Made by a program: the position numbers and the translations under genes. The notes under the pieces were generated by a model that was not told the origin of the DNA, ran no database searches, and saw only the letters and a program-made list of their open reading frames with translations. Of a DNA stretch of 64,000 nt, positions 27,870-29,485 are shown one piece after another (positions within the stretch are counted from its first letter, which is position 1; every line of letters begins with the position of its first letter). The stretch is from Intrasporangiaceae bacterium URHB0013 (GTDB lineage: Bacteria; Actinomycetota; Actinomycetes; Actinomycetales; Dermatophilaceae): NCBI GenBank assembly GCA_000620545.1, contig JIBA01000015.1:124001-188000 (forward strand), written 5' to 3'.

Positions 27870-27922
27870 AACCTAGCGCCCATATCGGACACCACGCCAG
27901 ACCTGGACTGCAATTTCTTGCA
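27870..27922 (-). promoter_or_regulatory. Promoter and possible operator of the amylopullulanase gene
   Basis: On the minus strand TAGGTT (27870-27875) is a -10 candidate that leaves a leader of about 55 bases. About 35 bases further upstream lies TGCAA-GAAA-TTGCA (27909-27922), an AT-rich inverted repeat of the kind bound by LacI-type maltose or glucose-linked regulators in actinobacteria. The regulator is not identified here. Confidence 0.4.
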
Positions 27923-27968
27923 TCAGTTCTCAGAATGTTGCGGCGCCGCGCTTCGGAGGTCCGCGTCT

Positions 27969-29030
27969 TCAGCGGGCGAACGCGTCGGGGGCCGACACGA
28001 GGACGCGGACGGCCGTGCTGAAGTCGTCGACCCGCGTCAGGAGGACAGGACCGCGCCGGACCGTGATCCCCGTCGGCCAGCCGGGTCCACCGATGACGAC
28101 CTCCAGCGGCCAGTCGACGACCTCGAGCTCGCGCCAGAACGGCTCGGCCTGCGGCCGCGGGAGGGAGGCCCACAGGAAGACCGCCCGCGACTGCGACTCC
28201 CTCAGCGCCGAGACGAGGGCGTCCGTGGGAACGCGCGGACCGAGGAAGAGGCTCGCGACGCCGTGACGGGCCAGCTCGGCCTCCAGTGCGAGGAGCGGGA
28301 GGTGGTGCTGCTCGTCGTCGGCGCTGGCGAGCACCACCGGCGCACCCGCGACGCGCAGACGGTTGGCGCGCACGACCGCCCGCAGCTCGGACTGGAGCAG
28401 CTCGCTCGTGAGGTGCTCCGACTGCACGCCCAGGCGTCCCTCCTGCCAGAGGTCGCCGACCCGACGGAGCGCCGGAGCGAAGACCTCGACCCAGGCCCGT
28501 CCCACGTCTCGGCGCCGCAGGGCCTGGCGGTAGAGCAGGGCCATGGTGCGCGGGTCGAGCGAACGGGCCGCACCCACGATTGCGTCGACGAGGTCGGCCG
28601 CGTCGGCAGCGTCGGCGGCGTCGGCGGCGCCGGCCACGTCGTCCTCGACACGCCCCGCCGCGGCACGGACGGCGCCACCGTGGCCGGCAGGGTCGTCGAG
28701 GTCGAGGTCGAGGCGTTCCGCGAGCGTGGCGGCATCCGTCGCCAGCACCGAGTCGGCCGCGCTCTGCGCCGGGACACCCTGTGCCGTCAGGCGCGACATG
28801 AGCAGCACTCGGCGGATGTCGAGCTCGGTGTAGCGCCGATGGTTGCCGCTCGTGCGCAGACTCGGGCCGACCCCGTGACGCCGGTCCCAGGAGCGCAGCG
28901 TCGGTGCCGCGATACCGAGCCGTTCCGCCACGGCACCGACGGGCCAGCCGAGCTCGGGCACCGTCTCTCCCGGCTCGGGGTCGGACCCCGGCCGACTGCT
29001 GGCAGCCTCGTGCGGGTACATGTCGATCAT
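27969..29030 (-). CDS. MerR-family regulator with B12-binding domain (CarH/LitR-type photoreceptor)
   Basis: A 353-residue regulator. Residues of about 28-90 are a MerR winged helix (VGAVAERLGIAAPTLRSWDRR, then GNHRRYTELDIRRV). A linker rich in Ala-Asp repeats leads to a helical cap with LWQEGRLGVQSEH (W195, E205, H206), which has the W-x9-EH spacing of light-sensing CarH proteins. A Rossmann B12-binding domain follows with DDEQHHLP near 240, in place of the usual E-x-H-x2-G. In that family adenosylcobalamin holds a DNA-binding tetramer in the dark and light breaks it. It is divergent from a WhiB gene. The start is ATG 29030; GTG 29033 is possible. Confidence 0.85.
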   Translation of the reverse strand: MIDMYPHEAASSRPGSDPEPGETVPELGWPVGAVAERLGIAAPTLRSWDRRHGVGPSLRTSGNHRRYTELDIRRVLLMSRLTAQGVPAQSAADSVLATDAATLAERLDLDLDDPAGHGGAVRAAAGRVEDDVAGAADAADAADAADLVDAIVGAARSLDPRTMALLYRQALRRRDVGRAWVEVFAPALRRVGDLWQEGRLGVQSEHLTSELLQSELRAVVRANRLRVAGAPVVLASADDEQHHLPLLALEAELARHGVASLFLGPRVPTDALVSALRESQSRAVFLWASLPRPQAEPFWRELEVVDWPLEVVIGGPGWPTGITVRRGPVLLTRVDDFSTAVRVLVSAPDAFAR

Positions 29031-29113
29031 CACCGTTTCACGTTGGTCGCCCGCATCGGGCGGAGCGGTCCGAGATTCCCGTCATGGACCGCTCCAGCCG
29101 ATCGGGCACCCTG

Positions 29114-29176
29114 ATCCTAAACTTATGCAAGCCTCTTGTGCAATGCATAAGTTCTGCGTAAGTTCTGCACCACATC
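29114..29176. promoter_or_regulatory. Shared bidirectional promoter/operator of the CarH/LitR-like and whiB genes
   Basis: Leftward promoter: TTGCAC (29138-29143), 18 bases, TAGGAT (29114-29119). Rightward promoter: TTGTGC (29136-29141), 17 bases, TAAGTT (29159-29164). The two -35 elements overlap. An inverted repeat, ACTTATGCA (29121) with TGCATAAGT (29144), spans the core. TGCATAAGTTC and TGCGTAAGTTC stand in tandem (29144-29165), with a weaker TGCACCACATC after them, giving an 11-base period. One bound regulator could therefore block both genes. Confidence 0.7.
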
Positions 29177-29203
29177 GCTCGATCGGACCCGACGGAGGAA
29201 GCC

Positions 29204-29485
29204 ATGACGATCACTCGCCTTCCGCGCCCCATCTACTCCTCGTACGAGTGGCAGGAGCAGGGTCGCTGCCGGACCAAGGCCGTCGAGCAGTTCTTCACGG
29301 ACGACCAGGAGCTCGACCAGCGCGAGCGGCGCGAGAAGACCGAGGCCGCCCGCATGGTGTGCAGCGGCTGCCCCGTGCGGCAGGCGTGCCTCGACCATGC
29401 CCTGCGCGTGCCGGAGACCTTCGGCATCTGGGGCGGCACGACCCCGACCGAGCGCGCGCAGCTGCTCTGGGACGTCGCCGGCTGA
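29204..29485 (+). CDS. WhiB-family iron-sulfur transcriptional regulator
   Basis: A 93-residue actinobacterial regulator. The four cluster cysteines are C22, C53, C56 and C62 (GRCRTKA, CSGCPVRQAC), and the beta turn FGIWGGTT at 73-80 is the sigma-factor-contact signature. WhiB proteins bind a 4Fe-4S cluster that senses redox or NO and contact the primary sigma factor. The subtype cannot be set; the short tail lacks a long basic segment. The ATG follows CGGAGGAAGCC. It is read divergently from the B12-dependent regulator, whose operator it shares. Confidence 0.93.
   Translation: MTITRLPRPIYSSYEWQEQGRCRTKAVEQFFTDDQELDQRERREKTEAARMVCSGCPVRQACLDHALRVPETFGIWGGTTPTERAQLLWDVAG

Follow-up and report, generated by a model that had tools for sequence, protein, structure and literature searches.

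A recurring divergent pair of CarH/LitR-type and WhiB genes in Actinomycetes suggests a redox switch under the control of light or B12

Introduction

Regulators of the CarH/LitR type are known as switches for carotenoid and photolyase genes; control through a partner protein has precedents in CarA/CarS and in class II LitR with LOV. The WhiB3/WhiD-type Fe-S family is central to redox control in mycobacteria and to development in Streptomyces.

Among the closest described systems is CarH of Thermus. Its operator consists of three 11-bp repeats placed across the promoter, with the half-site TnnACA, and the published CarH motif, D/ExHx2G/P-x41-SxT/V-x22-27-GG, accepts Pro as well as Gly (PMC9304148). 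In the light, His132, a residue that many but not all class I proteins share, becomes the second Co ligand; this ligation is reported as critical for the disassembly of Thermus CarH, and the H132A mutant showed minimal structural change upon illumination (PMC10442372). LitR proteins have been divided into classes I to V; class V, from Micrococcales, is reported to have no B12 domain and is listed as of unknown function (PMC9758184).

A literature search covering papers available without subscription returned no relevant paper linking LitR or CarH with WhiB.

Results

The window, i.e. the whole stretch of 64,000 nucleotides analyzed, belongs to a genome of 4.57 Mb whose nearest named relatives are Terrabacter species. 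The features under study are listed in Table 1.

Table 1. Position of the genes, repeats and putative promoters in the window.
Feature	Position	Strand	Basis
CarH/LitR-type regulator gene	27969..29033	-	domain searches, CarH alignment, AF2 model
Putative regulator promoter	29114..29143	-	-35 TTGCAC 29143-29138, 18-base spacer, -10 TAGGAT 29119-29114
Inverted repeat copy, TGCATAAGTTT, within the putative regulator promoter	29119..29129	-	sequence and conservation
Putative whiB promoter	29136..29164	+	-35 TTGTGC 29136-29141, 17-base spacer, -10 TAAGTT 29159-29164
Operator repeat 1, TGCATAAGTTC	29144..29154	+	sequence and conservation
Operator repeat 2, TGCGTAAGTTC, holding the putative whiB -10	29155..29165	+	sequence and conservation
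Operator repeat 3, TGCACCACATC, degenerate in the window	29166..29176	+	sequence and conservation
WhiB gene, 93 aa, WhiB3/WhiD-like	29204..29485	+	Whib domain 1.5e-21

Three starts can be considered for the regulator gene, GTG at 29033, ATG at 29030 and ATG at 29021, leaving gaps of 170, 173 and 182 bases, respectively, to the whiB gene; the 173-base gap given in a preliminary description of this DNA holds from ATG 29030. Since the equivalent of ATG 29021 is the start kept in all Terrabacter orthologues, this codon is the likely start and 182 bases the probable true gap.

The regulator is composed of a MerR winged helix, a four-helix cap and a C-terminal B12 Rossmann domain. Pfam matches were obtained for the winged helix (MerR_1, 1.3e-11) and for the cap (B12-binding_2, 9.2e-10); the Rossmann part, with no match in the Pfam domain search, aligns with Thermus CarH both by sequence and by AF2 model. 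The solved relatives by sequence are Thermus CarH chains. For the AF2 model (mean pLDDT 88) the best PDB matches were all CarH: full-length 5c8d was matched with an E-value of 5e-15, and the cobalamin domain with TM 0.75-0.81, normalised to the target. The combination of winged helix, W-x9-EH cap and B12 fold in one protein, noticed earlier from the letters, was confirmed. The score for the NCBIfam CarH equivalog was 91.7 bits vs a cut-off of 400, and identity to Thermus thermophilus CarH, a class I protein with the same three-part architecture and fold and the same W-x9-EH, E-x-H and GG elements, is about 25%.

The product of the divergent gene has the four conserved Cys and, as GIWGG, the G[IV]WGG turn of WhiB/Wbl proteins. 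WhiB3 is its best solved relative (E 4e-16 vs 5e-10 for the next Wbl). It differs from WhiB3/WhiD in reading LPRP for LPGP and in lacking the basic C-terminal tail, which serves DNA contact in those proteins; its C-terminus is ...AQLLWDVAG. The protein sits in a fast-evolving branch of the WhiB3/WhiD group, and the same genome has a typical WhiD gene at another place (G000:C14:199311). In other families, the genes paired with the regulator are themselves clear, typical WhiD/WhiB3 relatives; in general terms, then, a regulator of the CarH/LitR type is tied to a factor of the WhiD/WhiB3 type. One related genome carries, alongside the pair, a second, unpaired WhiB gene of the window type (L041; G033:C2:4271011-4271274).

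The preliminary description had staked its reading beforehand on conservation of the gene pair and of the repeat in close relatives, and both were found in related genomes. A divergent WhiB gene lies beside the orthologue in 6/8 other genomes of the genus (Terrabacter), and the pair also occurs in four other genera of the family and in ten genomes of the order's other families. The pair was found at 21 loci in relatives, and the named species with it include Humibacillus, Intrasporangium oryzae, Knoellia koreensis, Pedococcus cremeus and Kribbella. In Pedococcus cremeus the pair is present twice, as near-identical copies located on separate contigs (L073, L074).

In a class-wide sample, WhiB adjoins 73 of the 105 strong regulator matches, in 20 families, and in the order-level set all 67 regulators examined were paired with WhiB. 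One family (f44; L153-L160, L172), possibly sunlit freshwater actinobacteria with genomes mostly of 1.3-1.8 Mb, showed the pair in 24/24 matches and a cobalamin adenosyltransferase in all eight genomes tested. The pair can be lost, as it is absent from two genomes of the genus (G002 and G005, of which one is 74% complete); two to six state changes for the pair were needed in a quick tree that was not fully searched. Families f27 and f38 contain regulators of this subfamily whose B12 site is intact but which have no adjoining WhiB (L135, L136, L145, L151, L161-L163); that of L161 comes after a groEL-like gene.

Comparison with Thermus CarH revealed that W131, V138, E141, H142, E175, H177 and GG are kept in the window regulator, with the cap motif W-x9-EH present as W196...E206-H207 and the next element as E241-Q-H243-H-L-P246. 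Gly180 is replaced by Pro, an accepted variant; the real departures are Gln for His132 and Trp-Ala-Ser for Ser-Ala-Val. Written against the published motif, the protein reads E-x-H-x2-P-x41-W-A-S-x24-GG: ExHx2P and GG are correctly spaced, and W-A-S stands in place of SxT/V. That the Trp at the Ser222 position blocks the nucleotide pocket was considered and is not claimed, the alignment being ambiguous by one residue there (V-S-H in canonical actinobacterial LitRs). W196, E206, H207, E241, H243 and GG are invariant among nine close-clade sequences, down to 46% identity.

EQHHLP had been taken as a hint of altered B12 ligation. This suggestion was dropped, because Pro lies within the published motif (PMC9304148) and is also found in LitRs linked to photolyase or carotenoid genes. 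The Pro, the Trp and a GGPGW end are traits of a subfamily with the signature ExHxLP ... W[AS]x ... GGPGW. The same signature is found in actinobacterial LitRs beside ECF sigma or photolyase genes (Streptomyces-like L167; L164), which are divergent from the sigma factor or photolyase gene, whereas the window regulator is divergent from whiB. As the subfamily includes unpaired LitRs that adjoin photolyase, ECF sigma, lycopene cyclase or phytoene-desaturase-like genes, light is a plausible input for the subfamily. The reading that we favor, with moderate confidence, is that the regulator is an AdoCbl-binding CarH/LitR-type repressor of the WhiB3/WhiD-type factor, relieved by light.

The Gln at the His132 position bears directly on this reading. 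If His132 ligation is critical for disassembly, as reported for CarH (PMC10442372), the photoproduct of a regulator lacking this ligand may stay assembled on DNA, and the regulator could repress whiB in response to the level of coenzyme B12, not to light. The intact cap and lower-ligand residues, standing beside that Gln, agree with such a sensor of AdoCbl supply, as does the strong link to adenosyltransferase genes described below, and the light slot may be filled by a second LitR. The genome does contain a second CarH/LitR-type gene, of 311 aa (L119 7273-8208; G000:C9:462272-463207), probably a classical light regulator, whose neighbors are SRPBCC, amine oxidase-like, DUF1365-like, cyclopropane-fatty-acid-synthase-like and DNA photolyase genes, followed by cobalamin-synthesis genes; with this gene beside a photolyase, the window regulator is not the sole such candidate in the cell. 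However, His is rare at this position among the actinobacterial sequences examined, and a residue other than His follows the cap Trp in most actinobacterial LitRs, even beside photolyase or ECF sigma genes, so that its absence alone is no mark of a lost light response. We regard a pure supply sensor as unlikely.

The B12 motifs have been lost in 51 of the 67 order-level regulators examined, all of them still paired with WhiB. Because several paired relatives are left without any B12 site, the pair can evidently work without B12. The decayed regulators fall mainly in one supported clade (Micrococcales lineage; quick tree), and their genomes often lack a cobalamin adenosyltransferase: the PduO-type enzyme was found in 25/25 genomes with an intact site vs 2/5 with a decayed one, and within the order it accompanied 15/16 intact (94%) vs 13/51 decayed (25%) regulators (Fisher P 1.3e-6, uncorrected for phylogeny); some genomes are in both sets. 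The window's genome encodes PF01923 and PF02572 adenosyltransferases and cobalamin genes. The adenosyltransferase link, taken with ligand residues that do not vary within the close clade, is the best evidence that the intact members use AdoCbl.

These losses could also mean that the domain is a relic in the window regulator too, with whiB under the control of another ligand, a partner protein or redox; the frequent decay at a constant WhiB partner and the Micrococcales class V LitRs, reported without a B12 domain or known function (PMC9758184), speak for it. We hold this to be distinctly improbable, since the ligand residues are invariant in the window's own clade, and the motifs were lost mostly within one supported clade, together with adenosyltransferase. 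The window regulator, unlike class V as there reported, has the domain and its ligand residues; class V LitRs are probably the decayed members of the WhiB-paired group.

In the intergenic region, three direct 11-bp repeats overlap the putative whiB promoter. The overlap of the two -35 elements, which lie on opposite strands, and the placing of the whiB -10 in repeat 2, both proposed in the preliminary description, stand as positions; the hexamers are poor sigma-70 matches, and a consensus sigma-70 scan found neither promoter, so that both are placed by location and conservation. Its tandem repeats (repeats 1 and 2) were recovered at an 11-bp period, and repeat 3 reads TGCATCAGATC in sister species, where it is a good copy.

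Pattern searches showed that the double repeat, expected 0.00 times in the window by chance, has one match in the whole genome, and that 15 of the 17 matches in 58 related genomes fall in this intergenic region. Autocorrelation of the promoter core in 11 lineages peaked at lag 11 (z = 6.1; next best lag 2.0), a level reached in 0/2000 shuffles, a test which overstates independence as the lineages have common ancestry. Lag 11 was again top (z = 4.9) in 30 other promoters. The letters of the repeat vary by lineage and the 11-bp period is constant; the operator of a Nocardioidaceae MAG reads TGAATAGGTTC-TGAGTAAGTTT-TGGATAACTTA. Three tandem 11-bp repeats over the promoter are also the arrangement of Thermus CarH, which differs in its target, carotenoid genes, and in its half-site: by eye, the Terrabacter repeats, TGCRTARGTTC, do not fit TnnACA.

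Outside the window's family, the paired whiD promoters have a class-wide element, CTTGAACAACYTNTGGCGCGGTTGTA, in which the spacer is conserved too. It is absent as a rule from unpaired whiD and unpaired regulator genes, with partial matches at two or three unpaired WhiB promoters. A matrix made from this element gave no score on window-type operators, so that its probable identity with them rests on the common 11-bp register.

That the region is simply a shared bidirectional promoter, its 11-bp similarity being two conserved hexamers and the regulator acting elsewhere, is very improbable: the second repeat does contain the putative -10, and motif letters and promoter are partly confounded, but several spacer bases of the class-wide element are as conserved as the hexamers, the unit letters change across lineages while the period stays, and outside this region the 58 genomes hardly contain the double repeat.

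A candidate second target at 27919-27929 (TGCATCAGTTC, a single repeat-like site lying past the regulator stop and ahead of the pullulanase gene) was rejected, being well conserved in 1/9 relatives. The promoter region upstream of the pullulanase gene contains a conserved GCAAGATTTTGCAG-like dyad.

Discussion

Computation showed the fold, the ligand residues, the gene pair and the operator, how these are conserved, and that intact sites go together with AdoCbl synthesis. For light-relieved repression, the reading favored here, we infer AdoCbl binding, the repressive sign, the light switch and the role of the WhiB protein, as follows. In the dark, the AdoCbl-loaded regulator would bind head to tail on the tandem 11-bp repeats, which span the whiB promoter's spacer and -10, and whiB would be repressed. 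The inverted copy would let the regulator limit its own gene too. Light would break the Co-C bond and the regulator would leave the DNA. The WhiB3/WhiD-type Fe-S factor would then be made and may adjust SigA-dependent transcription for redox or photo-oxidative stress.

The main doubts about light-relieved repression come from the missing equivalent of His132 and from the paired relatives without B12 sites. The W-A-S in the SxT/V element, the absence of a TnnACA half-site and the second CarH/LitR by a photolyase gene are further points against it.

The recurrence of the pair points to a redox switch under light or B12 control. More tentatively, and with slightly less confidence than an even chance would give, the pair may be an old and widely kept relay of the Actinomycetes from light or B12 to redox, in which a CarH/LitR-type AdoCbl photoreceptor acts directly on a WhiB3/WhiD-type regulator through a dedicated 11-bp-repeat operator in genomes of 1.3 Mb and larger, and which became a B12-independent switch where AdoCbl synthesis stopped.

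Across 20 families of a single class, a sensor of the CarH/LitR type goes with an Fe-S factor of the WhiB3/WhiD type. Class V LitR, listed as having no known function, gains a likely target gene and operator. The group also offers a natural series in which the B12 site ranges from intact to decayed and the target gene stays the same, and it opens light control of WhiB factors to direct testing.
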